A stretch of DNA of 64,000 nt from positions 1 through 64,000 of the forward strand of contig NZ_JSEO01000004.1 in assembly GCF_001624705.1 (NCBI RefSeq), in the 5' to 3' direction. Under the pieces are notes generated by a model. That model had not been told where the DNA came from. It ran no database searches and saw only the letters and a list, made by a program, of their open reading frames with translations. This DNA comes from Marinomonas sp. SBI8L. Its GTDB lineage: Bacteria > Pseudomonadota > Gammaproteobacteria > Pseudomonadales > Marinomonadaceae. Position numbers and translations under genes: made by a program. Below, piece after piece: positions 12,470 to 52,483 of this stretch (position 1 is the stretch's first letter; every line of letters begins with the position of its first letter).

Positions 12470-12479
12470 ACTTAAAATC

Positions 12480-12764
12480 TCACTCAAAAGCGTATAGTTT
12501 TTGAAAATTAGCCATTTTCAATATCTCAGCTGTTTTTCCCGATACGTTTTTTACAGTTACTTTTTTATTGCATGCCTGAGCTTTTCTATATAATAAAACC
12601 ATCATTCCCAAGGCAGAACTATCAAGGTAGCTTACTCGGCTAAAATCAAGCACTATCTCAGAAACACTGGCATTTATAATTGAATCATCATATTTTTTCG
12701 TAAACTCCTTATGAAAACTAAAATCAAATTTATCGGGTAATGAGATTACATTGGTATCACTCAT
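12480..12764 (-). CDS. STAS-domain anti-sigma-factor-antagonist-like protein
   Basis: A 94-residue STAS protein of the SpoIIAA/RsbV type, a switch protein controlled by serine phosphorylation. The key loop SYLDSSALGM carries the conserved phosphorylatable Ser. The start at 12764 is chosen because AAAGGTGAT precedes it and the STAS fold begins there; longer reading through the upstream gene is out of frame with it. Gene order MCP-like, STAS, PP2C at the head of a che operon suggests a partner-switch attached to the chemosensory array, or a structural role in it. A cognate kinase and sigma factor are not in the window. Confidence 0.9.
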   Translation of the reverse strand: MSDTNVISLPDKFDFSFHKEFTKKYDDSIINASVSEIVLDFSRVSYLDSSALGMMVLLYRKAQACNKKVTVKNVSGKTAEILKMANFQKLYAFE

Positions 12765-12783
12765 AAAATAATCACCTTTTAAT

Positions 12784-15156: not shown

Positions 15157-15906
15157 TTAACTTGCACCAGCACCCTGTCTTGACTGTTCAGAGTTCTCTA
15201 CCAAAACAGCCGCACCGATCTGATTGATTTCTTGCCAAAGTTTTTCATCGATTTCGATACCATTATCTATGGTCTTCTCTTTCTCTTTCGCAATCTCTTT
15301 CGCACTCATATGGAATCGAGTTTGATGATCATTTGAGTTTTGCAAAGAAGAAGTTAAATCAACTCGAGAACTACAAATAATGGTCAATGCTTGCTTGTCC
15401 TGCTCATTGCTCTCAAGATTAGTCACAGCTTGGCTAAAAGAAGGGTAACGCGCACCAGCATTAATAGCAGCCGTATATTCAGTTACCACGTCCGATCCAT
15501 TGCGCCAGTAAGCCACCACACTGATACCACGACGGCCACAATCAGTCAGTGCTTTTAGTATGAACTTACGGTTATGACAATTGTGTACACTAATAGTCGC
15601 AATACCACATTCAAGTGCCTTTGCATGGGCTAGATCAACCGCTGAAGCAATACAGTTCAGCGCACTTCGGCCATGGCTATCAATAGTAGCGGAGGTGCTA
15701 TCTTCATAGATGACGGTACTCATATCCTTATATCTATCTTCTTTAATATAAGGCAAGGTTCTTTGTAATTCTTGCAGTCCATTTAAGCCATGCTTTTCTA
15801 GCCATAGGATCATGTTGGCAGCATCTTCGTAATTACCAACAAAATAGTTAGCCGCTTCAAAGCAACGTCGTAAAGCCGCTTTCAACTCATTCATAGAAAC
15901 ATGCAT
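15157..15906 (-). CDS. DUF3726-like protein of unknown function
   Basis: About 249 residues, soluble, no signal peptide. The start (MHVSMNELKAALRRC...) resembles DUF3726 proteins as I remember them; that is recall, not a search. The middle has an IDSHGRSAL then AHAKALECGIA then VHNCHN pattern that is reminiscent of the Ldh_2-type (sulfolactate/malate) dehydrogenase fold, again only a resemblance. The C-terminal 40 residues are polar. ATG at 15906 overlaps the stop of the upstream 573-residue gene by one base (TAATG), so the two are translationally coupled and probably work together. It belongs to the LysR-dehydrogenase locus by position. Confidence 0.65.
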   Translation of the reverse strand: MHVSMNELKAALRRCFEAANYFVGNYEDAANMILWLEKHGLNGLQELQRTLPYIKEDRYKDMSTVIYEDSTSATIDSHGRSALNCIASAVDLAHAKALECGIATISVHNCHNRKFILKALTDCGRRGISVVAYWRNGSDVVTEYTAAINAGARYPSFSQAVTNLESNEQDKQALTIICSSRVDLTSSLQNSNDHQTRFHMSAKEIAKEKEKTIDNGIEIDEKLWQEINQIGAAVLVENSEQSRQGAGAS

Positions 15907-17627
15907 TAGACATTCTCCTCTGCTTTTGGCGCCAATGGCATAAACCAATCATCATTAAAACTAGTCCCAATATCTTCTAATAAAGGTGCGCCTTGAAACA
16001 TGGTATTTCGCACCCAAAGTTTGGATCTAGGATCAAATTTACTCACCCCAAAGAAGGCAAGTTTGGCTCTTAGCAAATGCATAGGAAGTACATTTTTATC
16101 AAGCAAGTTAGCCTGAATATCACCATAAACACAACGGTTCATACTTTGAATACGTCTAACAATGCCTCTCAATTTAGGCTTAGTAACCATAAAACGAGCG
16201 GTTGAATGTTCTGGGAATTCATTAATATATTCGCACAGCTGGTCATAGCATTTACGTACGGCATAACCCACACCTAATGCCATTTGTTTATCTTTCCCTT
16301 TTTCGGTCGCCGCTTGACCTAATCTTGGCTCCATCTTCTCTTCTGATCTGTACCAGAAAATATCTCTAGAACCACTTTCACTAAAGTCTATTTTCAGTGC
16401 CCATGCATAACGAGTTTCAATCACCTGTTTAAGTGTTTGCAGCGGCATAACTGGGTCTAGATCTAAAAACTCTTCAGAACCATGATAGCCCTCTAAGTCG
16501 TCAACCAACTCAGGGTGAAGCTCTAATAACAAAGAGACTAGAAGCTCTTGCCCTTGCAAAGAGCAAGCCTCTTCACTCCAAACAATCAAGCTATTCCAGC
16601 TGTCTACACCAAGGTCAAGACGTGCTTTTAGCTGTTCAAGATCTGCCAAAACAGCAATATTATTGTTTGTTTGCCACTCGTCTTCCGTTTCTGTTTCAGC
16701 CATATGGCTTTGTACACGGCTGATTAAACGCTCTAGCTTCTCTTTTGCATTTTCATCATAAAGCCCAAGCAACCTCACTCTTGCTAAAGCAAGCTCACGC
16801 ATCTCAACCCATTGGTTAATTAATAGAGGATGGTTCATGAGATAGGGCGCCATGCCTAAACCTGTTGAGTTACCAATACCAAAGTAGCGCTTAATTTCTG
16901 GTTTCATTGGGTTATAAGTCGCTGGCGTACGTTTTTCAGCAATATGCTCAGCTTGGAACAAACTAAAATTTCTCAACATGAAGCACACGAACATTTCTGC
17001 CGAGAAAGGTCGCGCAAAATCAGGCCAGCGAGTAGATACCTTCTCCCAATCCGCCATGCCTAATTTACCACTGCCGTAAACAGCCGTTGTACGATATAAA
17101 TAGCCCACTTTAGCTATCTTATTAATGTCCGGCTGACCGCCGTTCGCTAATTGATCAACAACGTATTCAAAGTTACGTGCACTTCGGTTAGCACGTGATA
17201 AGACAAAGACACGGGAATCAACTCGACCCGCTTCTTGTTTAGGGACATTTTGGCGCAAGCTTTCAACGTAAACCTCATCCACTTTACCAGCAACCAGCGC
17301 CATTGTGAGATCCCATTTTGAAGCGATTACCCTATCATTTCTCTCATCTGGAGACAGATAATCAGAAAAGATAACAAAGCTAAACAGGTCATGAGGTGTT
17401 TGAATTTCATAAATAGCCGTACCATAGCCCTCGTCATTTAAAGACATGGTCGTCATATTTATCTGCCAACGCTCGCGCATCACATGGCGAACCAAGATGC
17501 GCATAAAGCTTAATCGGCTTTGATGCATAGCACCTAATCGCTCCAAATCCATTACCTGGTCGATAGGCCGAAGTGGCAACGCATTATTTCCTCTTAACGA
17601 GGAGTCAATCGCGGCGGGCGTGGTCAT
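15906..17627 (-). CDS. Unknown conserved-looking cytoplasmic protein
   Basis: I do not recognise this 573-residue protein. It has no signal peptide or transmembrane segment. Notable stretches are YRTTAVYGSGKLGMADWE (about 200), RYFGIGNSTGLGMAPYL (about 265) and a Trp-rich EEWQTNNNIAV region. The glycine-rich IGNSTGLGM segment could bind a nucleotide, but this is a guess. ATG at 17627 with an AGAGAG site upstream is preferred over GTG at 17636. It is coupled to the DUF3726-like gene by a one-base overlap and lies next to a LysR gene transcribed in the same direction. The pair may form an enzyme complex in the same pathway as the dehydrogenase and BCCT carrier on the other side of that regulator. 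Confidence 0.65.
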   Translation of the reverse strand: MTTPAAIDSSLRGNNALPLRPIDQVMDLERLGAMHQSRLSFMRILVRHVMRERWQINMTTMSLNDEGYGTAIYEIQTPHDLFSFVIFSDYLSPDERNDRVIASKWDLTMALVAGKVDEVYVESLRQNVPKQEAGRVDSRVFVLSRANRSARNFEYVVDQLANGGQPDINKIAKVGYLYRTTAVYGSGKLGMADWEKVSTRWPDFARPFSAEMFVCFMLRNFSLFQAEHIAEKRTPATYNPMKPEIKRYFGIGNSTGLGMAPYLMNHPLLINQWVEMRELALARVRLLGLYDENAKEKLERLISRVQSHMAETETEDEWQTNNNIAVLADLEQLKARLDLGVDSWNSLIVWSEEACSLQGQELLVSLLLELHPELVDDLEGYHGSEEFLDLDPVMPLQTLKQVIETRYAWALKIDFSESGSRDIFWYRSEEKMEPRLGQAATEKGKDKQMALGVGYAVRKCYDQLCEYINEFPEHSTARFMVTKPKLRGIVRRIQSMNRCVYGDIQANLLDKNVLPMHLLRAKLAFFGVSKFDPRSKLWVRNTMFQGAPLLEDIGTSFNDDWFMPLAPKAEENV

Positions 17628-17867
17628 GGCAAACACTCTCTTATTTTAGTAATTGAAAATTGTCTTCCTAGTGAATAGACATTCATGTTTCACTTGATGG
17701 TCTCATCATTGATCATGCGCCCTCTCCCATCAAATCAAAAAGCTATATCATTAGATAAGCTTTTCTAATCAAAACACCTCAAACCATTACTTTTCCTAGG
17801 TTTTACCCTTTTATAAAAAAATGAGCTCTTTTCAATTCTTTGACCAGTATCAAACAAACACAGCCAA

Positions 17868-18761
17868 TTAGCGCTTTGCCTTGCTCAAAATAAAGTCAAC
17901 AAGCGCACTCGCAGCAGGTGATAAAGATTTGTTATTAAGCTGCACTAAACCAATTTTGCGCACCACAAAAGGTGTATCCAAAGGGATAAAACACAAAGTT
18001 GAGCTCTCTTTAGGGAAGGCATATCGAGGTAAGGTTGTAATTCCTACACCCGCTTCAAGCATGGCAATTAAAGAGATCATATTAGAAATATAGAACTGTG
18101 AACGGCCAAGTAAAGGGCTAGCCTCACTGTCTTCTAGCAAGCGCGAAGTACCATTACTAATAAACCTATGTTCTAACAATGTTTTCCAATGAATCCCCTT
18201 AAGCTCAGCTAAAGGGTGATCTTTAGGGCAAACAACGCCTATCTGATCTTCCCAGATAGCTTCAAAGGTTTTATCGGGATGTTCCTCTTCATGAAATAAG
18301 CTGGCAATACCAAAATCTACCTGCTGATTTTCAACCATTTTAAGAACGGCATCAGAGTTATCATCAAAGAAACTGACATTCAGCTCCGTCGCATCCGCAA
18401 CAAACTCAAGTAGCAATTCAGGTAAAACCTGACTTGCTATAGAAGGGACAGAAGCTAGTCGGATATGTCCTGCTTTATGATCGGCCATCAACATCATGTC
18501 TTGCGCAATACGATCATGATGAGCAATGAGTTCTTTTGCCTTAGGTAAAAACAGTTCACCAAAAGGTGTCAACTCAGCCTTAGCAGACTTAGTTTTACGT
18601 TTTTCAAAAACAGACTCACCCAGTTTACTTTCCAAATCTTTTATCGATAAAGAAATCGCAGGCTGAGTTCTATGGGCCCGCTCAGCAGCCACATGAAAGC
18701 CTTTAAGCTCAGCAACCCAAACAAAATGGCGTAGTTGAGTAATTTTAAGTTCTGGCATCAT
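17868..18761 (-). CDS. LysR-family transcriptional regulator
   Basis: 297 residues with an N-terminal winged helix-turn-helix (RAHRTQPAISLSIKDLESKLGE at about 22-43, written here in part) and a periplasmic-binding-protein-like effector domain. It is divergent from the dehydrogenase gene at 18855; the 93-bp intergenic region contains an AT-rich partly palindromic stretch (18780-18812) suited to a LysR operator. It may also affect the two unknown genes downstream on its own strand. The likely effector is the substrate of the BCCT-dehydrogenase locus. Confidence 0.93.
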   Translation of the reverse strand: MMPELKITQLRHFVWVAELKGFHVAAERAHRTQPAISLSIKDLESKLGESVFEKRKTKSAKAELTPFGELFLPKAKELIAHHDRIAQDMMLMADHKAGHIRLASVPSIASQVLPELLLEFVADATELNVSFFDDNSDAVLKMVENQQVDFGIASLFHEEEHPDKTFEAIWEDQIGVVCPKDHPLAELKGIHWKTLLEHRFISNGTSRLLEDSEASPLLGRSQFYISNMISLIAMLEAGVGITTLPRYAFPKESSTLCFIPLDTPFVVRKIGLVQLNNKSLSPAASALVDFILSKAKR

Positions 18762-18854
18762 AATAAAAAAACCTTATCACTTAATATTAATTATTAATTT
18801 TTATTATTAAACCATGGGTACTAGTATGATGCCAATACCACATAGGAGTAGATC

Positions 18855-20300
18855 ATGTCCGATTCAGTTTTTCGTAATTACATCGCCGGTGAATGGGTTG
18901 ATGGAAACAAAGATAATATAGATAACATTAGTCCAGCTGACACCAAAGATAACATTGGTACTTATGCTCAAGCAGATAAAGCGCAAACACTTGCAGCGAT
19001 TGAAGCGGCTAAGCAAGGTCAAGCTGAATGGGAAAAAAGCGGTCTAGAGCAAAGATACTCTGTCTTGATGGCTATTGGTGACGAGCTGATCGCACGTAAA
19101 GACGAGCTAGGTGAATTGCTAGCCCGAGAAGAAGGTAAAACATTAGCAGAAGGCGCTGGTGAGACTTACCGTTCAGGTCAGTTCTTCCACTATTATGCTG
19201 CTGAAGTACTTCGTCAAATGGGCGAAACAGCTGACTCAGTTCGTCCAGGTGTTGAAATCGAAACTCGCCGTGAGCCAGTTGGTGTTGTAGGTATCATCAC
19301 ACCTTGGAACTTCCCAACAGCAACAGGCGCTTGGAAAATTGCCCCAGCACTTGCATACGGTAACTCAGTTGTTTGGAAACCCGCTAACCAAGTACCAGCA
19401 AGCGCTTGGGCTTTAACAGAAATCATTTCTCGCCAAGGTCTACCAGCAGGCACAGTAAACCTAGTAATGGGTCCTGGTGCTGAAGTAGGCGATACGCTGA
19501 TTCACTCAAAAGATATCAATGCACTGACTTTCACAGGTTCTTTAGAAACTGGCCGTAAAGTCGCTGTTGCAACAGCTGCAAACCTAATCAAATGCCAACT
19601 AGAAATGGGCAGTAAAAATGCACTGATCGTTCTAGACGATGCAGACATTGATAATGCTGTTGAATGTGCCGTTGGTGGTGCTTACGGTGGTACAGGTCAA
19701 AAATGTACAGCCTCTTCACGTTTAATCGTTACTGAAGGTATCCACGACGAATTCGTTGCAAAAATGATTGAGCGCATGAAGAAATTGGTTGTTGGTCACC
19801 CTCTTAAAGAAGGTGTTCACATCGGTGCGGTTGCTGATGCACGTCAAATGGAACAAAACCTATCTTACCTTGAGCTTGCTAAGAAAGAAGGCGGCGAATT
19901 GGCATATGGTGGTGAAGTACTGACAGAAGAAGCAGATGGTTACTACATGCAACCAGCGCTTTTCACTAACACAACAAACCAGATGACAATCAACCGTGAA
20001 GAAGCTTTCGCGCCTATCGCTTGCATCATCAAGGTTGCGGATTACACAGAAGCACTAGACACACTAAATGATACAAACTTTGGTCTAACAGGTGGTATTT
20101 GCACAACTTCTCTTAAATACGCTAACGACTTCAAACGCAATGCTAAAACGGGTTGCGCCATGATCAACTTGCCAACAGCAGGTACGGATTACCATGTGCC
20201 ATTTGGCGGACGTAAAGATTCAAGCTTTGGTCCACGTGAGCAAGGAACTTACGCAAAAGAGTTCTACACCGTGGTTAAAACCACTTATATGCGCGCATAA
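18855..20300 (+). CDS. NAD(P)-dependent aldehyde dehydrogenase, alpha-ketoglutaric semialdehyde dehydrogenase-like
   Basis: 481 residues of the ALDH superfamily. Catalytic Cys lies in GQKCTASS and the general base Glu in LEMGSKN; the cofactor loop PWNFPTATGAWK is present. The C-terminal DYHVPFGGRKDSSFGPREQG motif is typical of alpha-ketoglutaric semialdehyde (2,5-dioxopentanoate) dehydrogenases, which finish hydroxyproline and sugar-acid breakdown, so this is the best guess; other semialdehydes are possible. GGAG lies 7 bp before the ATG. It heads a probable operon with the M19-like gene 14 bp downstream and the BCCT carrier, divergent from the LysR gene. Confidence 0.9.
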   Translation: MSDSVFRNYIAGEWVDGNKDNIDNISPADTKDNIGTYAQADKAQTLAAIEAAKQGQAEWEKSGLEQRYSVLMAIGDELIARKDELGELLAREEGKTLAEGAGETYRSGQFFHYYAAEVLRQMGETADSVRPGVEIETRREPVGVVGIITPWNFPTATGAWKIAPALAYGNSVVWKPANQVPASAWALTEIISRQGLPAGTVNLVMGPGAEVGDTLIHSKDINALTFTGSLETGRKVAVATAANLIKCQLEMGSKNALIVLDDADIDNAVECAVGGAYGGTGQKCTASSRLIVTEGIHDEFVAKMIERMKKLVVGHPLKEGVHIGAVADARQMEQNLSYLELAKKEGGELAYGGEVLTEEADGYYMQPALFTNTTNQMTINREEAFAPIACIIKVADYTEALDTLNDTNFGLTGGICTTSLKYANDFKRNAKTGCAMINLPTAGTDYHVPFGGRKDSSFGPREQGTYAKEFYTVVKTTYMRA

Positions 20301-20314
20301 CAAAGGGCTGAATC

Positions 20315-21307
20315 ATGCATCAGGATCTTATCGTCATAGATGGTTTGCAATACTCGAATTGGGACAGAAACATCTTCTTACAGCTTAAAGAAGGTGGTGT
20401 CACCATGGTACATGCGACCATTGTTTACCATGAACAAATTCGCGAAACCCTATTGCGTATTGGTGAATGGAATACTCATTTTGAGCGTAACGCTGACCTA
20501 ATTATGCCGGTTCGCTGTGCTGATGATATTCGGATCGCCAAACAAACAGGCCGTGTCGGCATCATGTTTGGCGCTCAGAATTGCTCACCGATTGAAGACG
20601 ACATTGCCATGATCGAGATAATGCGTGAGCTGAATCTTATGATCATGCAGCTCACTTATAACAACCAAAGTCTGCTGGCTTGCGGTTGTTATGAGGCAGT
20701 CGATAGCGGTGTCACTCGCTTTGGTAAACAAGCAATCAAGGAAATGAACCGTGTTGGCATGATAGTCGATATGAGTCATAGCGGTGAACGCAGCACCCTT
20801 GATGCGATAGAAATATCAGAGCGTCCTATTGTGATTTCTCACGCTAATCCGCTGAGTTTCCATGAAGCAAAACGCAACAAGTCAGACCTAGTTCTTAAAA
20901 ACCTTGCCGAATCAGGTGGTTTATTAGGTTTCAGTTTATATCCATTCCACCTAAAAAATGGGTCTAACTGCCGCCTTGATGAGTTCTGCGACATGATAGC
21001 TAACACAGCAGATTTAATGGGCATTGACAATATTGGTATAGGTACAGATTTATGCCAGCAGCAACCACTTTCTATTCTTGAATGGATGCGAAATGGTCGT
21101 TGGTCAAAAACAAAGGATTACGGGGAAGGGTCTAAATCCAATGCGGATTGGCCTGAACCACTCACTTGGTTTAGGGATAGCCGAGATTTCCCAAATCTCA
21201 CCAAAGGCCTGATTGATCGAGGCTTTAATCAAACTGAGGTAGCAAAAATAATGGGCCAAAACTGGTTACGATTCTTCGACGAAGGATTAACACCACAGGG
21301 TTCATAA
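20315..21307 (+). CDS. Peptidase M19 (renal dipeptidase)-family protein lacking usual metal ligands
   Basis: 330 residues with the overall M19 amidohydrolase layout, including the later histidines in VDMSHSG and VISHANPLS and the GIGTD motif. The canonical HxD of the first strand (DGHND) is replaced by DGLQY at residues 9-13, and the bridging Glu is replaced by Gln88 (FGAQN). I recall the same changes in the Pseudomonas dipeptidase-like protein PA5396 from the glycine betaine catabolism locus, so this is probably a betaine-associated subfamily with a different activity. It is 14 bp after the dehydrogenase gene and followed by the BCCT carrier, which supports a role in breaking down an imported quaternary amine. 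Confidence 0.8.
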   Translation: MHQDLIVIDGLQYSNWDRNIFLQLKEGGVTMVHATIVYHEQIRETLLRIGEWNTHFERNADLIMPVRCADDIRIAKQTGRVGIMFGAQNCSPIEDDIAMIEIMRELNLMIMQLTYNNQSLLACGCYEAVDSGVTRFGKQAIKEMNRVGMIVDMSHSGERSTLDAIEISERPIVISHANPLSFHEAKRNKSDLVLKNLAESGGLLGFSLYPFHLKNGSNCRLDEFCDMIANTADLMGIDNIGIGTDLCQQQPLSILEWMRNGRWSKTKDYGEGSKSNADWPEPLTWFRDSRDFPNLTKGLIDRGFNQTEVAKIMGQNWLRFFDEGLTPQGS

Positions 21308-21399
21308 AGGTAACCCAAGTTAACGGGCATACAGGCATGCTCGTTAACGCCGGATAATTCCAATAAATATAAAAAATAAATATCCTTCAGGAGACTACC

Positions 21400-22956
21400 A
21401 TGAGTAGAGTTTCTCAAGACGGCGTACAGCCAAATCAAGCTAGCAACGGCACTGGATTATTAGCAGGGGTAGATTTATCCGTGTTTTTCATCAGTGGTGG
21501 CGGTTTAGCACTCTTCGTAATTGCCGCTCTGTATGACATCAATATGGTTTCATCTTGGGTAAATAGCGCATTTGCCACATCCACTAAACTCTTTGGTGCT
21601 TATTGGCAAGTATTGTTGTTATTAACCTTTATTATCGGCTTATTCCTAGCGATTGGTCGTTCTGGTGCAGTGGTACTTGGCGGCATCAAGACCCCTGAGA
21701 TTTCTACTTTTAAGTGGATATCAATCATCATGTGTACCCTACTTGCCGGTGGCGGTGTGTTTTGGGCAGCAGCAGAACCTATGGCTCACTTCACTTCTGC
21801 ACCACCATTGTTTGGTGAAGCAGAAGGTGCACAAGCAGCTTACAATGCATTAGCACAAAGCTTTATGCACTGGGGTTTCCTAGCATGGGCAATCTTGGGT
21901 AGCTTAACCGGTATCGTTTTCATGTACCTACATTATGAAAAAGGTCTACCACTTAAGCCAAGAACTTTGCTTTACCCTGTGTTTGGTGACAAGGTAATGA
22001 CTGGTCCATTCGGTGCTATCGTTGATGCAAGTTGTGTACTTGCTGTTGTAGCCGGAACAGTTGGCCCAATCGGCTTCCTAGGTCTTCAGGTTAGCTTTGG
22101 TTTAGAAAAACTATTTGGCATTCCTGATACCTACACAACTCAGCTTGTTATCCTACTTTCTTTAATTGGTATCTATACCCTTTCAGCAGTAAGTGGTGTG
22201 ACTAAAGGCATCCAGATTCTAAGTCGTGCCAACGTGATTCTTGCTGTTGTTCTGATCGCTTTCATTCTATTGTTTGGACCAACTGCTTTCATCATTGATA
22301 GCTACCTACATTCTTTTGGTATCTACCTTGATAAGTTCATCCCAATGGCAACATTCCGTGCTAGCCCAGGCTGGTTGGACTGGTGGACAGTATTCTTCTG
22401 GGGCTGGTTCCTAGGTTACGGTCCTCTTATGGCCATGTTTGTCGCACGTATTTCACGTGGTCGTACCATTCGTCAAATGGTGCTATTGATCTCAGTTGTT
22501 GCTCCCATCATCACAACATTCTGGTTCACAATCGTTGGTGGTAGTGGTTTAGCGTTTGAAATCGCAAACCCAGGTGTTATCTCTGAACCTTTCACAGGCT
22601 TCAACCTACCAGCAGCACTATTGGCTATCACAGAACAATTGCCTATGGGCTTCATGATCTCAGTCTTGTTCCTGATTTTAACGACTATCTTTGTCGCAAC
22701 AACAGGTGACTCAATGACCTATGCCGTATCTATGGTTATGACAGGCACAGACCAACCACAAAGCTCTATCCGTGTGTTCTGGGGCATCATGATGGGTGTT
22801 GTCGCAGCACTGCTTATATCGATTGGCTCTGGCGGTATTTCTGCCTTGCAATCTTTCATCGTGATCACGGCAGTACCGGTTTCTTTAGTACTACTACCGT
22901 CACTTTGGACTGCACCACAAATTGCGAAGAAGATGGCAGAAGAGCAAGGCTTATAA
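21400..22956 (+). CDS. BCCT-family betaine/carnitine/choline transporter
   Basis: 518 residues, twelve predicted transmembrane segments. The family signature is visible in GWLDWWTVFFWGWFLGYGP with the aromatic cation-binding tryptophans, and in the FVARISRGRT loop that follows. BCCT carriers import trimethylammonium compounds with Na+ or H+. The long C-terminal osmosensory tail seen in BetP-like carriers is absent, which fits a catabolic rather than osmoregulatory role. CAGGAG lies 7 bp before the ATG. It is third in the operon with the semialdehyde dehydrogenase and M19-like genes and is followed by a terminator at 23041. Confidence 0.93.
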   Translation: MSRVSQDGVQPNQASNGTGLLAGVDLSVFFISGGGLALFVIAALYDINMVSSWVNSAFATSTKLFGAYWQVLLLLTFIIGLFLAIGRSGAVVLGGIKTPEISTFKWISIIMCTLLAGGGVFWAAAEPMAHFTSAPPLFGEAEGAQAAYNALAQSFMHWGFLAWAILGSLTGIVFMYLHYEKGLPLKPRTLLYPVFGDKVMTGPFGAIVDASCVLAVVAGTVGPIGFLGLQVSFGLEKLFGIPDTYTTQLVILLSLIGIYTLSAVSGVTKGIQILSRANVILAVVLIAFILLFGPTAFIIDSYLHSFGIYLDKFIPMATFRASPGWLDWWTVFFWGWFLGYGPLMAMFVARISRGRTIRQMVLLISVVAPIITTFWFTIVGGSGLAFEIANPGVISEPFTGFNLPAALLAITEQLPMGFMISVLFLILTTIFVATTGDSMTYAVSMVMTGTDQPQSSIRVFWGIMMGVVAALLISIGSGGISALQSFIVITAVPVSLVLLPSLWTAPQIAKKMAEEQGL

Positions 22957-23040
22957 ACGATTACCTTGCTATGAGAACCTAGCTATTAATGCTTAGCCTT
23001 ACCCTTTGGGTAGGGCAATAGCAAAAGCAGCAATAAATAG

Positions 23041-23062
23041 AAGGGAGCCTCGGCTCCCTTTC
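23041..23062 (+). terminator. Intrinsic terminator after BCCT gene
   Basis: AAGGGAGCC (23041-23049) and GGCTCCCTT (23052-23060) form a nine-pair inverted repeat followed by a short T-rich run. It lies 85 bp after the BCCT stop and 67 bp before the RidA start, so RidA probably has its own promoter or depends on read-through. Confidence 0.75.
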
Positions 23063-23128
23063 TAGGTGCAAACTCTGCAGTTTTCAGAGTTCACTATTTA
23101 TTGAAAACACATAGGACACACCAAGACC

Positions 23129-23524
23129 ATGGCTCAGCCAATCAAAACCCCCGTTAAAACAGACCTTTTCGCATCAAAAGCACCACTTGAATGGGCAGTC
23201 ATTGCTAACGGGCAACTATCGACAGCTCAAATTCCAATTGATCAAGAAGGTAAAGTCGTTGAAGGCGGTATCGAAGCTCAAGCACGCCAAACAATGGACA
23301 ACCTAAAGCACACGATAGAAGCAGCTGAATTGACGATGGACCATGTCACTCAAGTACTTATCTATGTTACCGATAGATCTCAACTTCCAGTATTTAACAA
23401 GGTTTATGCAGAATACTTTGCAGCACCTTACCCAAACCGCGCAGCTATGATAGTGGCAGGTTTAGCGAGAGAAGAGATGCTATGTGAAGTGGTTGCTTAT
23501 GCCGTCGTTCCTGCACAAAACTAA
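23129..23524 (+). CDS. RidA/YjgF/Rid-family protein (enamine/imine deaminase-like)
   Basis: 131 residues, single Rid domain, probably a homotrimer. The family core is seen in NLKHTIEAAELTMDHVTQVLIYVTD and the PNRAAMIVAGLAREEMLCEVVA end. Rid proteins hydrolyse reactive enamine/imine intermediates made by PLP or flavin enzymes. The active-site Arg of RidA proper (PARxxxxV) may be matched by the Arg in PNRAAM. Other Rid subfamilies act in specific catabolic pathways, and its place after the BCCT locus suggests that role here. Start ATG has AGGA 11 bp upstream. Confidence 0.88.
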   Translation: MAQPIKTPVKTDLFASKAPLEWAVIANGQLSTAQIPIDQEGKVVEGGIEAQARQTMDNLKHTIEAAELTMDHVTQVLIYVTDRSQLPVFNKVYAEYFAAPYPNRAAMIVAGLAREEMLCEVVAYAVVPAQN

Positions 23525-23884
23525 GCTATCAAAAGCAAGCTTTCAAATTTAAGCGCTCAAAACTAGATAGCTGAAAACAGTGTTGATAATGTGGTTAATC
23601 CATTATCAACACGATTAAATGCGTTCTTTTAATGGGCAGGTTCTCCCCCCGCTTTTCTTACCCGTCACAATTGTTTGTGGCTAAGAATTTGGTAGAGCTT
23701 GCTTCTTTTTTCCCCTCCCTCTCTGAAGCAAATAAAAGGCTTCAGGTATAAAGATTCCAAAACGACGACTAAACACATTCCTGCGACAAAATCCTTGTCT
23801 TAATCCATAGAGATTGGCATGCTGCACTATTTTTCAATTCGAACTTTATTCGTCATTATGTTTCGCTATTTATAGGGATGTAAT
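23525..23884. other. Gene-free region with strong hairpin at 23580-23612
   Basis: 360 bp between RidA and the MFS gene. A perfect 12-bp inverted repeat GTGTTGATAATG...CATTATCAACAC lies at 23580-23612 with a 9-nt loop. It lacks a T-run directly after it, so it may be a terminator of weak type or an operator. No reading frame in the rest is convincing. Confidence 0.55.
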
Positions 23885-25102
23885 TTGCAAGCTAGCCACT
23901 CAAACCCACCAAAAAAGCCCTATACCTTAATCATTATCAGCCTGATATTAACGGCTTGTAGTGCTGTAACACATGGCTTTAGCATGTTTTTGTATTCTGC
24001 TCTTTTACCCGAAGTAAGAGACTTATTTCAGCTTAGCTATAGCACAGCCTCTTTCATCTCGGCCCTACTTTTTATTGCCTATATGCTGACCTCATTGATA
24101 AGTGGTGTTCTTCTAACAAAACTAGGTGGCTATAAGCTCTTTTTACTCACCATAGGGATTAGCCCTGTCTTACTGGCATTAGCCGTACTCTCTCCTTGGG
24201 CATTAGGCTTCGCTATTTGCCTTGCTTTTGTATCAGGTTGCGCTGTTGCAAACTGGAATGCCATTGTTGCCTTATCAAGCGATATTATCCCGCTAAAGTT
24301 TCGTAATCGTATCCTTGGATTAGCGTCTGCAGGTGCCGCCTTTGCGATTACATTGAATGGTATTTTAATCGCCTTATTTTTACCTGAGTTGAGCCTGCAA
24401 GCTTTTTGGTTTGTATGCGCCGCTATCACAGCCGCCATTGCACTTTTATCCTTTATCTACCTGCCTAAACCAAAAGAAGAATCCCAAGAGCAAAACTATC
24501 AAAAGCCAAGCATCAATCCTAAAACCATTCTTAAATCTCACCCTGTCGCTTTACAAGCCGTGCTTTTAAGCGCTTTTATTGGCTTTATTTCAGGGCCGTT
24601 TTTAACCTTTTTATCACCTTTTATTGTGGATGTACTCAAAGGCGATTCAAATCAGACAGGTTCGATTTGGACCATGATAGGCGTAGCTGGGATAGTGGGC
24701 GGCATTATCATAGGCGCACTTGCCGATAAGTTTGGCATTATCCAAGTTATTAAACTCACCTTGTTAAGCTTTGCTGCCTGCATACTTCTATTATTGTGGG
24801 ACGCCAAACTTTGGGTACTCTGGGCTTGTGCCAGCATTTTTGCTTTCTTGTACTTCCCTGTCTGGGGGCTAATCGCCAGCCATATTAGCGACTTTGTCGA
24901 TAGTAAACAGAGCGCCCTTATCGTCAGTTTAGGCATGGTTGGCTACGGCTGCGGCAATGCTTTCGCCAGCAGCCTTTGTGGCATATTACTCGATATCAGC
25001 ACTCAATATAGCCAAGTAGATGGCTTCACACTCGTTTACAGTTGGATACTTGCCGCAGCCTGTCTCGCCGCACTTTGGTGCCAGAGAATGCAGAAAGCTT
25101 AG
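23885..25102 (+). CDS. MFS transporter
   Basis: 405 residues with twelve hydrophobic segments and the major facilitator loop-2/3 type motif near GGYKLFLL and GALADKFG. Substrate is not predictable. It begins with TTG at 23885 with AGGGA just upstream; the next ATG would cut into TM1. The last 105 bp of the gene (24997-25102) are repeated at 29927-30038, beyond the Hachiman genes. The 3' end here differs from that copy at a few mostly synonymous positions and by a 6-bp deletion before the stop. This means the original 3' end was displaced when the island entered. Confidence 0.88.
   Translation: MQASHSNPPKKPYTLIIISLILTACSAVTHGFSMFLYSALLPEVRDLFQLSYSTASFISALLFIAYMLTSLISGVLLTKLGGYKLFLLTIGISPVLLALAVLSPWALGFAICLAFVSGCAVANWNAIVALSSDIIPLKFRNRILGLASAGAAFAITLNGILIALFLPELSLQAFWFVCAAITAAIALLSFIYLPKPKEESQEQNYQKPSINPKTILKSHPVALQAVLLSAFIGFISGPFLTFLSPFIVDVLKGDSNQTGSIWTMIGVAGIVGGIIIGALADKFGIIQVIKLTLLSFAACILLLLWDAKLWVLWACASIFAFLYFPVWGLIASHISDFVDSKQSALIVSLGMVGYGCGNAFASSLCGILLDISTQYSQVDGFTLVYSWILAAACLAALWCQRMQKA
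24997..25102 (+). repeat. Left boundary repeat of Hachiman island (MFS 3' end)
   Basis: These bases match 29927-30038 with about three substitutions and one 6-bp indel, including some 69 bp without a mismatch. Downstream, 25130-25149 matches 16 of 20 bases of 30087-30106, the 3' end of the neighbouring binding-protein gene. Read on the minus strand it encodes ENALELS then a stop, compared with ESALELS in the intact gene. So the repeat spans the junction of two convergent genes. Confidence 0.9.
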
Positions 25103-25325
25103 GACAGTATAGCTCTCACTCTAATCAACTTAGCTCTAAAGCATTTTCCTTTTTAAATCTATGAAGCTCGCCATAAACTTTCTAAAAGACACTTAAATTA
25201 AACACTTTTTCAACATTTTTGGGTTATTATTAGCCTTATAAAAAATTTGAAGCTTAGTGTTTTATATACATAAAAAACAAATTAGAGTACTGTATATAAA
25301 AACAGTATCAGATTGGAAGGAAGTC

Positions 25326-26183
25326 ATGAGTAGAGTCAAAAAAAGTGTAACTGTAAGATTTTTCTCTATAGATGCAAGTAGTGCTTTTTTTGAAAATTTT
25401 TCTGCAAACTTCCTCATCAGTAATGAATCTCAAGCTAGTGCTAGAATTATAACTATCAGAAATACTAAAAATTTCATCAAAGCCGCACACAGAACTGATG
25501 ATCAATTCTTTATTGCCGTAGTCAGAGAAAGAAATGCTTGGCAAACCAAAGCCTCTCGAGATGGCAATATTACTGGCCTTGCAATCAATCAAGGCATTAT
25601 TGGCGACCCTTATTACTTCTGCGTCATACCTAACAAAAAAGTAGTTCTAGGATTTACTACAGGTCCAATCGGAAGTTTAAAGGCTGTTGCAAGTGTTGCT
25701 TTAGAGCAGTTTAAGACTCTGAGGAACGATAAAATAATGCTATCTCTTATACCTAAAGAAAAAGAATTTTCGAAGCTATTAGAGTTGCCTGAATACAACA
25801 GCCTCCATTTCAAAATTAACTCTTCATCTTTAGCTGATGTAGCAGAAGATGCTCCGGCTTTAATCAAAAACCTTAGCTCAGCACCTTACATTGAAAACAA
25901 TGTTCAACTATCTTTAGACTTGGACTGTGGAGATGAACCAGATAGCATAGTTACTAAAGACAATATCATTGAGATTGTAAATTATTTATCAGATAGTGAT
26001 TCCTGTACTGTTCTTAAGGTCAAAGGGAAAAATGAAGAAGGCCAAAATATAAACTTAGATTTTGGCAATGCATTCATAAACTATAAAAGTGAACTCAATA
26101 CGAGAAATAAATACATTGACGAAAGTACAGCAATTAAAGTTTTAAGCTCAGCTTGGAATGAAAGTTCACTACTGACTAAGTAA
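25326..26183 (+). CDS. Unknown protein inside the Hachiman island
   Basis: I do not recognise this 286-residue protein. It has no signal peptide or membrane segment and seems to be two mixed alpha/beta halves: about 1-150 with a KNFIKAAHR then FFIAVVRERNAW segment, and about 190-286 with an acidic LDLDCGDEP segment. The ATG at 25326 follows GGAAGGAAG and is preferred over an upstream ATG at 25257. It is convergent with hamB and their ends overlap by 15 bp. It lies between the two boundary repeats, so it came in with hamA and hamB as cargo. It could be a third component, an accessory defence gene, or an anti-toxic partner. Base composition is AT-rich like hamA. Confidence 0.7.
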   Translation: MSRVKKSVTVRFFSIDASSAFFENFSANFLISNESQASARIITIRNTKNFIKAAHRTDDQFFIAVVRERNAWQTKASRDGNITGLAINQGIIGDPYYFCVIPNKKVVLGFTTGPIGSLKAVASVALEQFKTLRNDKIMLSLIPKEKEFSKLLELPEYNSLHFKINSSSLADVAEDAPALIKNLSSAPYIENNVQLSLDLDCGDEPDSIVTKDNIIEIVNYLSDSDSCTVLKVKGKNEEGQNINLDFGNAFINYKSELNTRNKYIDESTAIKVLSSAWNESSLLTK

Positions 26184-28664
26184 GAATTTTACCTCTTTCT
26201 GTGTTACGGGGTGAGTATTGGATAATAAGCCTCGTTCTAGCAAAGAGAGTAAATCATAGATTGACTTAACCTCAATACCTCTGGGAATAGATTCCTGAAT
26301 TTCCTTTGCCGCCTCTCTTGATAGTCCGAAATTTATAAGGTTTATCATTCTATCTTCACAAGCTCCTAACTCAAGATAGGTATGAAGCTTCACAGAAACT
26401 TTATCAATTCCTTTCAACTTCATACTGTTAGTTAAAAGGATATGATAGCAACTGAGTGCATTCCTCAATCTAAACGTAATATCATTATTTATAATTTTAA
26501 TTACATTACGCACAGATTGGTTTACATTTGCTGTTGCTGGCTCATTCTTATCCCATGCTATTTGCTCTGTGATTATTTCTTTCAGACTTTTTCCCACAAC
26601 CCACTTTGTAGCGACAACAGAAACATGTTCTATTGAGTAGCCATCACCATTTGTATACACACCAAGTTCAAAGAGTTTTTGAGTAATACGAACTATAGAG
26701 GGATATAAATCTTTCGACTTAGGATGTGGCAATACCCAATCATCATAATTATCTAGAGAGTCAAAAAATAGAGACAAATTATTCTGTTGAATGTAACCAA
26801 TAGTAGGATTAGCTTCTAATATAAACGGCGCTATCCTCAATGCATTACGAGCACTTTCAACATGTTTTATTAGCTGATATTTTTCAGAAGCACTTAACTG
26901 AAGCTCTTCTGCATTTAACCGTTCATCCAAACTACCATTTTCAAGTTCTCTAATTAGTTTATTAGCAATAGTATAAAAGCGGTACTGATCCTCTTTGTCA
27001 TGCGGGTACTTCCCTTGCAGAGCAGAGACAACTAAATGCAGGTCTTCATTTAATGTCTTATAATAAGTAGGAATCTTCTCCTCTTTTACATCACTTTCTT
27101 CAAAATAATCTTGGTATTTCCATGAGTCATGATTCAATAAAAAAACGTTTCCAGAAAAGTGCTCAACCATTCGGCCTGCTCTTCCAGTTATATTGTTAAT
27201 TTTAACTTCTTCTAATTTTTCAGGCTGCTGAGCTCTAATTGGTCTAAAAGGGTTAGTTAGAAATAAGTTCTTCGCTGGAAGATTGACACCTTCTGCAAGA
27301 GTACTTGTGCACACAATGTATTTTATATCTCCAGCTTTGACCAAGTTTTCAACCATTACTCTCACGGAGCTAGGTAAAGGCCCATAATGGAATGCAACAC
27401 CTTTCCTAAGGCTAGAAGCTAGAGTAAAGTTCTTATGAATAAATTGCTCTATATAGTCCGCTGCTTCTTCTAAAGCTGGAGTCGTATCATACTCAAGAAT
27501 TAGTGCGGCTATATCTCTAGCAGTATTCTCACAATGGTTGGTTTGGTTTCGGTATATAATATTGCTCTGACCTTGACCTAATCGAAGAACAACATCAGCA
27601 GTTTTTCTACCTGTAAAGTTTTTTGATATGGTTGCTTTGTCAGAAGTGTTATACCTTTCAACTTCAATGTTTTTACCTTTTAATTCGACAGCTAATAGCA
27701 GTTTTGCAACTGGTGAGTGCCTAGTAATTTCTTTCTGGAATTCAACACCATTAAAAACAGCTGAAAAGGCATTTTGGTAACTATCAGAAGGCATACTAAC
27801 GATAATTTGAGGAGAGCTATCGTCAAGAACCTTTTCTAAAGTTAAATGTAATAAAACACCTCTCCCATCATCAGATATATTGTGAGCTTCATCAATAAAT
27901 AGGTAGTCAAAGCTCAAATCCCCTCGCTGAATAAGCTCATACAAACGCTCTTGAGTCATAACAAAAACGGTCTTTGCACTGAACTCTTCATCCTTAGGGA
28001 CTGTACATATCTCTAGCTCATTCTCGACATCTATTCCTTTTGCTATTTCAAAAACCTTACTTGATACTTCAGATATCAATGCACGGGTTGGCACAACGAT
28101 TGCTGCGAATGCTCCATCCGATTTCACAACTTTGTTTACTAGATACGTAAGAATAATATGTGTTTTTCCCGCGGATGTCGGTGCGATAGTTATGACATCA
28201 TTATCCGAATCAAGGTTACCCCATAGCATCCTCTGAAAGTCAGTTAAAGGAAAAGAAAGCTCATCTACAGAGTTCATTTCTGCCTTCAATTCAAACTTCG
28301 CTGTAGTGTTAAAGCCATAACCCATAATTACATTGGGATGCCTCTTTTCTAGTAATGAGACATTGGGAAAATCTCCAGAGTTAATAAAGATACTCTTTGC
28401 AATAGGAATCAAGTCAGGATAGTCATCACCAGCAATATCTAGAATCATAGCAAGCAAAGCGACCGCTTCTTTCTTTAGCTTTTCATCTTCACATTTGTGG
28501 AATACTTGAATTGACGTTGAAAGGCGCTTAACTAAACTTCTATCCAAATGTGGCTTATTGCCAGCAAGTTGCTCTACGTACTGTCCGAAGACTACATTTC
28601 TATCCTGCTCAAAATCATCATGTAAGAGGATATCTCTCCCAAGCTTTAACGCAATCCTACTCAT
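26169..28664 (-). CDS. hamB: Hachiman defence helicase HamB
   Basis: An 831-residue superfamily 2 helicase. Walker A TIAPTSAGKTHI is at about 159-170, the DEAH box (FIDEAHNISDD) at 258-261 and the motif VI region in NNITGRAGRMVEHF near 500. In Hachiman systems HamB surveys DNA and on phage infection releases the HamA nuclease. The ATG overlaps the end of the upstream gene by 4 bp (ATGA), the usual hamA-hamB coupling. The C-terminal 250 residues are helical without recognised domain. Length fits HamB proteins. Its 3' end overlaps the convergent unknown gene by 15 bp, so transcripts may interfere. Confidence 0.9.
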   Translation of the reverse strand: MSRIALKLGRDILLHDDFEQDRNVVFGQYVEQLAGNKPHLDRSLVKRLSTSIQVFHKCEDEKLKKEAVALLAMILDIAGDDYPDLIPIAKSIFINSGDFPNVSLLEKRHPNVIMGYGFNTTAKFELKAEMNSVDELSFPLTDFQRMLWGNLDSDNDVITIAPTSAGKTHIILTYLVNKVVKSDGAFAAIVVPTRALISEVSSKVFEIAKGIDVENELEICTVPKDEEFSAKTVFVMTQERLYELIQRGDLSFDYLFIDEAHNISDDGRGVLLHLTLEKVLDDSSPQIIVSMPSDSYQNAFSAVFNGVEFQKEITRHSPVAKLLLAVELKGKNIEVERYNTSDKATISKNFTGRKTADVVLRLGQGQSNIIYRNQTNHCENTARDIAALILEYDTTPALEEAADYIEQFIHKNFTLASSLRKGVAFHYGPLPSSVRVMVENLVKAGDIKYIVCTSTLAEGVNLPAKNLFLTNPFRPIRAQQPEKLEEVKINNITGRAGRMVEHFSGNVFLLNHDSWKYQDYFEESDVKEEKIPTYYKTLNEDLHLVVSALQGKYPHDKEDQYRFYTIANKLIRELENGSLDERLNAEELQLSASEKYQLIKHVESARNALRIAPFILEANPTIGYIQQNNLSLFFDSLDNYDDWVLPHPKSKDLYPSIVRITQKLFELGVYTNGDGYSIEHVSVVATKWVVGKSLKEIITEQIAWDKNEPATANVNQSVRNVIKIINNDITFRLRNALSCYHILLTNSMKLKGIDKVSVKLHTYLELGACEDRMINLINFGLSREAAKEIQESIPRGIEVKSIYDLLSLLERGLLSNTHPVTQKEVKFLLSQ

Positions 28665-29554
28665 TTTGTGATTCCCATGTATAAGATAAATTCATCGACT
28701 AACTTGTCAACACATCCGAAAGGCAACATCAATAAAGTAACTTCCTCAATTTCGAGCTTCTGCTTTTCAACTTTGCTAAAAAAATCACCAACATATTGGC
28801 AGGCAAGCTCTTGGTAGTGTTTCAAAAATGATGCTTCATTCTCAAAAATAATGTCTGGCTGAGTAAAACCAATAAAGCAAGGAGAGTGGATTTTATCTTC
28901 TAAATCTGCGCCATATGGGTTTAGATAGGTCAAGATTGTTTCTTCAAGTTCATCTGTCAAATTTGGAAAGTCGAGATAACTGTCTAATAATAAAAACTCG
29001 TCTTCAAATTTACCTTTTGCGTTAGCAATTGAGCTTGTAGCATCTGCTGCTGCTGATTTAAAGTTTTTATGCAGCTTGGATTCTCCCAAATAAACTCTAA
29101 ACCCGTCACCTAAAAACTGCCCATGAACAGCGTCAGCACCAAAAACAGGCATCCTAGGATTAGTTTTCATTGAGATTTTACTCAGCAATTTAGGTGCTTG
29201 GATATACACATCTAACAAGGTAAACAAAATCAGCTCCCCAAGCTCACCTTTGGCAGTATGCTTACTTAGTTTTTTAATCGCTTTATCAAAAAGATCCACC
29301 ATCGCAGTATCAGAGGCTCTCCCTAACTTTTTTTGCATTTCTTTATAGGAAAAAACAAAATTTTGAAGAACTCCTTCTTTGATACACTCAAAAAGAGCAT
29401 CATGCGAAGTCTTTTTATCCTCAACACTTGGTAAGTAAATCAACAGAGTTTCAACTCTTCTACCATCATTCAGTTTGAACGATATAGGTGCTTTTTTTAG
29501 AACATCTTTTATTTTATTTGGATTTTGTAACTGAACTTGAAGTGAACTACTCAT
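28661..29554 (-). CDS. hamA: Hachiman defence nuclease HamA (DUF1837)
   Basis: 297 residues of the DUF1837 / HamA family. The PD-(D/E)XK-type nuclease core is seen as E107 in GELGEL, D141 in GADAVH, and E158/K160 in LGESK. Family knowledge: HamA is held inactive by HamB and, once freed, degrades DNA without sequence preference, causing abortive defence. The four-base overlap with hamB and the gene order hamA-hamB on one strand are typical. Its promoter must lie in the AT-rich region 29555-29926. Sequence composition is AT-rich like hamB and unlike the flanking MFS fragment. Confidence 0.9.
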   Translation of the reverse strand: MSSSLQVQLQNPNKIKDVLKKAPISFKLNDGRRVETLLIYLPSVEDKKTSHDALFECIKEGVLQNFVFSYKEMQKKLGRASDTAMVDLFDKAIKKLSKHTAKGELGELILFTLLDVYIQAPKLLSKISMKTNPRMPVFGADAVHGQFLGDGFRVYLGESKLHKNFKSAAADATSSIANAKGKFEDEFLLLDSYLDFPNLTDELEETILTYLNPYGADLEDKIHSPCFIGFTQPDIIFENEASFLKHYQELACQYVGDFFSKVEKQKLEIEEVTLLMLPFGCVDKLVDEFILYMGITK

Positions 29555-29926
29555 CTGAAGCTGATTCCTAGTAACATAGAAAACTTACAGTTAGATTTTT
29601 AAACAAGAAAGCTATTCTAAAAGAGATTAATAACAACATCACCTGAACAAGATTCACTTCGTTCTTTTTAAAACTTTATGTTTGAAGGCATAACAGATTT
29701 CATTAATTAATGACTAACCGAAAGGCTTTTTTATATTTGAGGCGAAAAAACTAATGCTAGAACTTCTTGAGAATAAGCGAAAACTTAAAGAAAAATGTTT
29801 ACAAGAATTAATCCAAAACTGACATCCTCAAATAGAATTAAAACTCCTCCAATATTAAATAAATGACATCATAATTTTCACGGTAGGGACTTAAATGGGA
29901 TAAAAAATGGGTTACTTCCTAAACTA
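29555..29926. other. Non-coding region between hamA and right island boundary
   Basis: About 370 bp, very AT-rich. It should contain the hamA promoter on the minus strand. The only frames are short, such as a 22-codon one at 29754-29822 with a distant GAGG. No recombinase fragment, tRNA or inverted terminal repeat is seen. Confidence 0.5.
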
Positions 29927-30038
29927 CAGCGCTCAATATAGCCAAGTCGACGGCTTCACACTCGTTTACAGTTGGATACTTGCCGCAGCCTGTCTCGCCG
30001 CACTTTGGTGCCAGAGAATGCAAAAAGCGAAAGCTTAG
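29927..30038 (+). pseudogene. MFS 3'-end fragment, right boundary repeat of Hachiman island
   Basis: This encodes the last 33 or so residues of the MFS protein (SAQYSQVDGFTL...QRMQKAKA, shown in part) in frame to a stop at 30036-30038, with no gene upstream. It duplicates 24997-25102. Because the intact binding-protein gene at 30073 follows it at natural convergent distance, this copy is probably the ancestral 3' end, cut off from its gene by insertion of the island. Confidence 0.9.
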
Positions 30039-30072
30039 AGTAAATAAAAACAGCTTGATCACATCACTTCGC

Positions 30073-31161
30073 TTAGTCCAACTCACTTAATTCTAAAGCA
30101 CTCTCCCAACTGCGGATAAAACGGCTTTGTTTAGCATGATCTCGACCAACCAATAGTTGCTGGTCTAGCTCTATGATGCGGGTGGGATGTGATCGTTTTT
30201 TACTGAGGTTGATTGCTTGGCTTGCATCGCCGATGGGGAAGAGTAGGTTTTCCGACAACATTAAACTTTGTACTTTTTCAGATAATAAGAAGTCAATGAA
30301 TTTACCAGCATCTTCGGCATTTGGCGCAAGTTTAGGGATTAACACTGAACGCATCATAAGCAGGGTGTAATCTGTTGGCATTATCATGGTGAGTCTAGGG
30401 TCACCCAAAGCACGCTTATGCGCATAAGAGCCCACTAGGTTATAACCAAGCAATAAGTCCCCTGCGGCCACATCATCTATCATGGCACTAGTACAACAGT
30501 AGGTTTTCACCTTGTGGCTACCAAAGGCCTCAATCATACGGCCCCATGTGGCGTCAGCTTGGCGAGCATCTTGGCTCGCTAATAAATAACCTACTCCACT
30601 TTTACGAATATCATAGGTGCCTATCTTGCCGTGAAAGGCTTGGCTGTGATGACGCATTATTTGTAATAAATCCAACCGATTTTTTGGTAGTTCACCACCT
30701 GGAAACAGATTCTGGTTTACCAACATCACCACGGGTTCTAACGAGAAAGCAAAGATTTGATTCCGCCACTTTGCCATTTCTGGTAGGGCTTGAGTCATAC
30801 TGGATTGATAGGTTTTGGCATAGGCATCATTAACCAGCTTCAATTGTAAATCCATCGCACTGCTAACAATCAAGCTGGCTTTGGGCCTGTCTTTTTCTGC
30901 CATCACCTTATGATAGAGTTCGAGGGAATTCACATCATAATAGGCAACTTTAGTCGCTGGATAGGTTTCAACAAAAGCTTTTAAAATAGGTTCAAACGCA
31001 TCAAGGTCGACTGTGGAGTAGATATTTAAAGTTCTCTGCTCTTGGAAGAAGTTACCTCCTTGGTCCAACGCTGAGTCAGATTCGTACACAACAGGGTTTG
31101 CCATTAAGCTTGCCACATAAGCAAATATGAGTGCGACCAACACTTTTTTCAGACTTCTCAT
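30073..31161 (-). CDS. Periplasmic solute-binding protein linked to two-component system
   Basis: 362 residues. A signal peptide at 1-22 (basic start, hydrophobic core, MANPVV cleavage region) is followed by a family 1 / Fe(III)-type extracellular binding-protein fold with STVDLDAFEPILKAF and GDLLLGYNL motifs. No ABC permease or ATPase lies near. Its start overlaps the histidine kinase gene by 4 bp (ATGA), and order on the strand is regulator, kinase, binding protein. This resembles PgtC-type proteins, in which a binding protein delivers the ligand signal to the kinase, so I infer a sensory accessory rather than a transporter part. The 3' end forms the right edge of the Hachiman island target. 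Confidence 0.85.
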   Translation of the reverse strand: MRSLKKVLVALIFAYVASLMANPVVYESDSALDQGGNFFQEQRTLNIYSTVDLDAFEPILKAFVETYPATKVAYYDVNSLELYHKVMAEKDRPKASLIVSSAMDLQLKLVNDAYAKTYQSSMTQALPEMAKWRNQIFAFSLEPVVMLVNQNLFPGGELPKNRLDLLQIMRHHSQAFHGKIGTYDIRKSGVGYLLASQDARQADATWGRMIEAFGSHKVKTYCCTSAMIDDVAAGDLLLGYNLVGSYAHKRALGDPRLTMIMPTDYTLLMMRSVLIPKLAPNAEDAGKFIDFLLSEKVQSLMLSENLLFPIGDASQAINLSKKRSHPTRIIELDQQLLVGRDHAKQSRFIRSWESALELSELD

Positions 31162-52465: not shown

Positions 52466-52483
52466 AATTAATCCCACCCTGAG

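Follow-up and report, generated by a model that had tools for sequence, protein, structure and literature searches.

A Hachiman defence island with a LexA-boxed third gene at a duplicated convergent-gene junction of Marinomonas sp. SBI8L

The first 64,000 nucleotides of contig NZ_JSEO01000004.1 of Marinomonas sp. SBI8L (this whole 64-kb stretch is called the window here, and the genome it comes from the own genome) carry a small island made of three genes. Two of them, hamA and hamB, encode the nuclease and the helicase of the Hachiman defence system; the third runs convergent with hamB and is referred to as gene C. A LexA/SOS box lies immediately before gene C, and the gene accompanies hamAB in all six loci found of one Hachiman clade. 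The stronger result of the analysis is this SOS-boxed, clade-bound third gene rather than the duplicated gene junction at which the island lies, although it was the junction that the initial annotation had singled out. That annotation had listed an unknown gene beside hamAB; the gene is indeed there, but its status as a conserved, SOS-boxed partner of hamAB had been overlooked.

HamA and HamB form a known DNA-damage-sensing abortive defence complex. The explanation proposed here is tentative and, taken as a whole, falls a little short of probable: a three-gene Hachiman variant would have been inserted between two convergent genes, and its gene C, kept off by LexA and switched on during the SOS response, would modulate HamAB in time with damage, most likely as a brake. 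Such a brake would keep repairable host damage from triggering self-killing by HamAB. The convergent 3′ ends of gene C and hamB may add transcriptional interference.

Gene C, its hamAB partners and its LexA box

The convincing genes between the two repeat copies that flank the island, together with the box, are:

25288..25307, forward strand: LexA/SOS box TACTGTATATAAAAACAGTA, 18 bp before the start codon of gene C
25326..26183, forward strand: gene C, 285 amino acids, distantly DUF6731-like (Pfam DUF6731 below cut-off), the convergent third gene
26169..28664, reverse strand: hamB, a DEAD-box helicase of 831 amino acids (PADLOC HamB, 1441.7 bits over residues 1-830; Pfam DEAD)
28661..29554, reverse strand: hamA, a nuclease of 297 amino acids with D...E-S-K (PADLOC HamA, 479 bits; Pfam HamA, 120 bits)

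No other convincing gene is present: the remaining open reading frames of at least 40 amino acids in the island reach 94 amino acids at most and all overlap gene C, hamB or hamA. This listing agrees with the earlier statement that only hamA, hamB and one unknown gene lie between the copies. The island is firmly predicted to encode a Hachiman HamAB pair, that is, HamA (DUF1837) with its D-E(X)K residues and an adjacent superfamily 2 (SF2) DEAD-box HamB. Residues D141, E158 and K160 of HamA are invariant across the three aligned sequences, and hamA and hamB overlap by 4 bp.

Close relatives of HamB (51-55% identity) were found in five further loci: L069, on a contig labelled as a Flavobacteriaceae metagenome-assembled genome; L072, on a viral contig with an integrase gene; and L087, L088 and L089, in genomes of the same order as the window. 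In a tree of 14 sequences the six HamB proteins form a single clade with a support of 1.000; L095, whose hamB is broken and for which no hamA was recovered, and L070 do not figure in this tree or in the scan of hamA for boxes described below. Matches in plasmids (12 records, 26-29% identity) and phages (2 records, about 25%) are distant, a HamB search of E. coli returned none, and in the class samples only the own genome was recovered at E 1e-100 or 1e-150.

In all six loci of this clade, gene C and hamB converge, in differing neighbourhoods. The spacing between the two genes varies from -17 (overlap) to +64 bp, and they overlap in four of the six; in the window their 3′ ends overlap tail to tail by 15 bp. 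The start codon of gene C, the ATG at 25326, was chosen by alignment, and five homologues start there too. Among ten more distant HamB loci (L070 and L090-L098), which were scanned over their full length, with 1,070 bases or more 3′ of each hamB and with hamA recovered beside nine, none has gene C. Without hamAB, the gene occurs in none of 397 other phylum-sampled genomes and in none of 21 other genomes in the family of G1019. It was found in no plasmid and no phage record, and among the viral contigs, for which the scans used short peptide patterns, it was met on the L072 contig only; the collection of genome contigs was scanned with HamB alone. On this distribution gene C is very probably a conserved partner of the HamAB clade.

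The family to which gene C belongs gives little guidance. Gene C has no match at E 1 in PADLOC (PADLOC-DB 2.0.0) or PDB, its best NCBIfam match is no better than E 0.04, and its weak matches are to DUF6731 and an unnamed phage family; DUF6731 is not mentioned in the open-access literature that was searched. Two of the related loci have further features beside the hamAB-gene C module. In L089, a nucleotidyltransferase-HEPN gene is present in two very similar copies (12043-12927 and 15428-16312) on one side, while the other side holds a gene of DUF3223, the family of the published HamC, and a weakly HNH-like gene. The module of L069 has a repeat of 45 nt (211-255 and 6059-6103, 73% identity) on its two sides; no comparable repeats flank it in L072, L087, L088 or L089.

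The box before gene C surfaced as short genus-wide matches when the left island end was searched, and it is the only 20-mer of the window with at least 15 of 20 matches to the LexA consensus. The pattern CTGTATATNNNNACAG occurs eight times in the own genome, against two occurrences of the reversed control. Besides the site of gene C, five of the seven others lie beside SOS-type genes and two are unclear; the five stand in front of genes for RuvC, LexA, a DinB-type polymerase and YebG, and of a gene for an S24 peptidase, read here as UmuD. On the other side of the lexA box lies a gene that we take to be DinG-like. In its promoter gene C carries a LexA box of the host type, as expected of a member of the LexA regulon. 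The perfect motif CTGT-N8-ACAG stands upstream of gene C in three of the six loci (the window, L069 and L087) and upstream of hamA in none of the six close and none of eight distant loci. It occurs four times in the 132,783 bases of the six loci, three times in the 250 bp before gene C (binomial p 6e-6). It is accordingly likely, with good confidence, that gene C is LexA-controlled in this genome, and the gene would then be induced in the cell during the SOS response.

Several points weigh against this view of the box. The box of the window prompted the count, which makes the p value optimistic, and without the window two of three sites are left. L072, L088 and L089 have no box, although CTGT-N8-ACAG may not be the LexA motif of those hosts. 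L069 and L087 are sister branches, and their box lies at about -100, against -36 in the window. An alternative in-frame start at GTG 25257 would give a gene C of 308 amino acids and would place the box inside the gene. The box in L069 also bears on the origin of that contig: judging by the title of one paper, non-canonical LexA proteins reportedly regulate the SOS response in Bacteroidetes (PMC8565304), and since L069 has the box, its Flavobacteriaceae label may be a binning error.

In relatives (L110-L115), an uncharacterised gene of about 190-205 amino acids is preceded by two boxes in tandem, one of them identical or nearly identical to this LexA box; the gene is probably an SOS gene shared across the genus.

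What gene C may do to HamAB

HamAB is described as being activated by DNA damage without phage and as toxic under mitomycin C and bleomycin (PMC12278908). Given its constant company, gene C would seem rather likely to act on HamAB. Which way it acts is a more tentative matter: a brake is the preferred direction because SOS marks host damage that is under repair, and a booster is nearly as likely as a brake.

As an SOS-induced booster or co-effector, which by itself we hold to be somewhat doubtful, gene C would be released from LexA repression by damage from the phage or from HamA, and it would strengthen or complete immunity. The same linkage to hamAB and the same LexA box are expected of a booster; damage by HamA has been proposed to amplify the response (PMC12278908), and the nuclease-protease system HamMAB illustrates that Hachiman can gain extra effectors (PMC12799240). 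The extra effectors described in the accessible text of these papers, however, lie beside hamA or are fused to it, with no separate convergent promoter, and the sequence of gene C bears no sign of an enzyme. It is also conceivable, if unlikely, that gene C serves defence or stress on its own account and simply accompanies hamAB, with no effect on HamAB. Defence genes often co-travel, gene C is in convergent orientation with a promoter of its own, and L089 has the weakly HNH-like gene and the DUF3223 gene nearby. This co-travelling is harder to reconcile with the occurrence of gene C only with this HamAB clade, in six of six loci with varied neighbourhoods, and never alone in the collections searched.

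For a modulator of HamAB, some observations are unfavourable. Gene C could be an SOS-induced effector in its own right, it belongs to no informative family, and stray copies could escape both the short-peptide scans of the viral contigs and the HamB-only scan of the genome contigs.

The duplicated junction and the arrival of the island

The island lies between a gene for a transporter of the major facilitator superfamily (MFS) and a gene for an extracellular solute-binding protein. The features that make up the junction are:

23885..25102, forward strand: intact MFS transporter gene, whose 3′ end forms the left repeat copy (Pfam MFS_1; 95% amino acid identity to G036, a relative of the same genus)
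24997..25098, forward strand: left copy of the MFS 3′ end, a direct repeat (98/102 to the right copy)
25115..25149, reverse strand: diverged stub of the 3′ end of the binding-protein gene (ENALELS-stop; 25/35 to the right copy, 27/35 to G036)
29927..30028, forward strand: right copy of the MFS 3′ end, resident-like and collinear with the empty site, inside an open reading frame remnant of 43 codons at 29907-30038
30073..31161, reverse strand: extracellular solute-binding protein gene, the original convergent neighbour of the MFS gene (Pfam SBP_bac_6/8; 84% amino acid identity to G036)

The island, at about 25150-29926, is with near certainty an insertion, because G036 keeps the convergent pair without the island and the right side of the island is collinear with it. 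The search for the MFS gene covered 49 genomes of the genus including the own genome; among the 48 others a close relative was found only in G036, and the remaining matches outside the own locus reached at most 30%. In G036 just 25 bp separate the convergent MFS and binding-protein genes; there is one junction and no island, and the right repeat copy and the genes rightwards of it are collinear with this empty site. The island-free strain that the initial annotation had asked for has thus been found, and its undivided junction bears out an ancestral order in which the MFS gene converged on the binding-protein gene. The two genes were called head-to-tail in that annotation, which needs correcting: they are oriented tail to tail. 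The junction is known from two genomes, one empty (G036) and one filled (own), and this HamB was found in none of the 48 other genomes of the genus at E 1e-60. In 30 of the 46 genomes with a match to the binding-protein gene, the locus was inspected; in the 28 loci other than the window and G036, nothing unusual was apparent by eye among the genes up to 1.5 kb from its 3′ end, with no family search made.

The recurrence of the MFS end, which had been described with a few substitutions and a 6-bp indel, holds in full. The stretches 24997-25098 and 29927-30028 are identical at 98 of 102 positions without a gap, after which the left copy is shorter by 6 bp, so that it ends MQKA-stop where the right one ends MQKAKA-stop. 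Five tRNA-Met copies at 2141-2650 aside (a tandem array of five near-identical tRNA-Met (CAT) genes lies at 2145-2638), this pair is the sole direct repeat of at least 40 bp reported in the window. The claimed likeness at the end of the binding-protein gene is likewise found, in a weaker and shorter form: 25115-25149 matches 30072-30106 at 25 of 35 positions, and against the empty site of G036 the left copy matches at 27/35 and the right copy at 31/35. Between the left block and the G036 site the local score is 20, a value that 5 of 5,000 dinucleotide shuffles but none of 1,147 control stretches of the window attain; the left block stands out less when it is scored against only the right copy (110 of 5,000 shuffles reach that score). 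Short as it is, 25115-25149 is probably a true remnant of the 3′ end of the binding-protein gene (ENALELS-stop against ESALELS).

The interior of the island has a lower content of guanine plus cytosine (0.34-0.375 in 1-kb windows) than its flanks (0.39-0.45). No integrase or transposase gene was seen among the genes between the repeat copies, as had been stated before; the locus does not have the make-up of an integrase-type genomic island, with an integrase gene and defined attachment repeats: no integrase lies between the repeats, and these, though present, come with a diverged stub. Between 23000 and 32000 there is no Rfam family, and scans for promoters and terminators yielded no more than shuffles did.

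As to the route, the favoured one, at about even odds, is homologous recombination with DNA of a related bacterium that bore its own MFS/binding-protein junction. At 80/102 and 82/102, the left and right MFS ends show nearly the same distance to G036, and therefore split from each other later than from G036. The divergence between left and right is uneven, 10/35 in the stub against 4/102 in the MFS part (Fisher p 0.0002), and simple decay of one duplication therefore explains it poorly. The pattern fits a junction imported from a relative with a similar MFS end and a dissimilar binding-protein end. The island also adjoins the edge of a tract of more recent shared ancestry with G036, which again fits homologous recombination:

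15160..25099, no strand: eight genes with recent ancestry in common with G036, a block that ends at the island (synonymous divergence, dS, 0.14-0.72)

In 34 of the 35 other matched genes dS to G036 is at least 0.98 or undefined (several genes for which dS was undefined or failed are counted as undefined), the exception being 40783-43002 with a dS of 0.49. Set against a near-saturated remainder, 15160-25099 and 40783-43002 are probable recent recombination tracts between otherwise distant species. The donor segment with a diverged junction and the homologous exchange, both put forward in the initial annotation, are thus favoured by the uneven repeats, and the latter also by the block that ends at the island; a break inside the MFS gene finds no backing at silent sites.

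A nucleotide changepoint search did place an edge at 25010 (1 of 2,000 permutations), which tracks amino acid changes (8/31 in the MFS tail against 9/356 in the body). A breakpoint within the MFS gene was dropped as proof of mosaicism, since the signal lies in amino acid changes and not in silent sites. Several points speak against recombination as the route. Four-fold mismatches to G036 are alike in tail and body (4/11 and 48/159), and three of the four substitutions between the left and right MFS ends fall at third codon positions, which is not significant (p 0.11). There are about four such block edges among about forty gene borders, so that the edge at the island could be a coincidence. 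The empty site is known from one genome only.

When an integrase targets the end of a gene, a duplicate of the 3′ end makes the gene whole again. A site-specific integrase acting in trans, since lost or never part of the island, might in this way have placed the island at the MFS 3′ end, and the same module does occur on the viral contig L072, which carries an integrase gene. This route is unlikely, given that no integrase is seen in the island, that the homology extends beyond the gene end into the diverged stub of the neighbour and that the two repeats diverge unevenly. A single target duplication at insertion, followed by decay of the left stub, is doubtful as well. It would suit the 98/102 identity of the MFS parts and a non-coding stub free to decay, and gene conversion between the MFS copies could weaken the argument from uneven divergence; the right MFS fragment, however, was equally free to decay, yet it differs at 4/102 against 10/35 (p 0.0002).

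Exchange by homologous recombination needs no integrase and is well documented: numerous hotspots are devoid of mobility genes and recombine at the flanking core genes (PMC5635113). Such integrase-poor hotspots would resemble the present locus in exchanging accessory cargo at flanking genes by homologous recombination; they differ from it in the visible duplication of its junction, for which a single filled and a single empty site are on record.

Two other observations concern the surroundings. The stretch 51749-56023, with a response regulator and a hybrid histidine kinase of 1,179 amino acids (named by reading), has no counterpart in the G036 region compared and represents a second insertion or loss at this scale. 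Upstream of hamA, 29595-29723 holds a repeat of about 50-130 bp with at least 17 sites in G036 at 73-84% identity and at least four other sites in the own genome at 71-80%; these counts are lower bounds, as 14 of 55 G036 candidates and 14 of 52 from the own genome were scored. The other 47 genomes of the genus hold no convincing copy. Several copies adjoin genes for RAYT-type (Y1) transposases, and others lie 10-70 bp upstream of single genes, among them a gene for a Cap4-type nuclease (L125). On account of these positions an integron attC reading of the repeat was set aside, with no formal attC test.

Known Hachiman systems and the meaning of gene C

With Hachiman type I (PMC12278908, PMC8565338) the island shares an overlapping pair of HamA with D-E(X)K and a DEAD-box HamB; it differs by the added convergent, LexA-boxed third gene, which matches no PADLOC-DB 2.0.0 model. 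Type II consists of hamAB with HamC, a DUF3223 protein (PMC8565338), and so also has a third gene beside hamAB. Judged by Pfam, gene C is distinct from this published HamC, being distantly DUF6731-like; L089 has both genes, and the island has no DUF3223 gene or other convincing gene beside its three. HamMAB is likewise a Hachiman system with an acquired extra gene, in which the nuclease gene typically lies upstream and a protease is fused to HamA (PMC12799240). The HamA of the island, in contrast, keeps D...E-S-K and holds the HamA domain alone in its 297 amino acids, no MBL-fold nuclease gene is present in the island, and gene C matches neither nucleases nor proteases. AbpAB is a pair of a HamA-domain protein and a helicase that is also triggered by DNA damage; its activation by mitomycin C is independent of RecA and LexA, and the accessible text describes no SOS-boxed partner gene (PMC10732053). 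An SOS-controlled Hachiman partner was not found in print in the open-access literature that was searched.

Gene C adds to the Hachiman variants one whose extra gene lies outside all PADLOC-DB 2.0.0 models, and the junction is an uncluttered example of a minimal defence cargo inserted with no integrase in sight. The interface of Hachiman with host repair "is of future interest" (PMC12278908), and LexA-boxed gene C is a natural candidate for that interface. With its box, it would offer a concrete link between a damage-triggered Hachiman system and the repair of the host. A more speculative idea, which we regard as rather less likely than not, is that a clade-dedicated, LexA-controlled protein senses the SOS state of the host and restrains HamAB, so that damage both arms the nuclease and raises the brake. 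If this were true, the ratio of the two would separate repairable host damage from phage attack.

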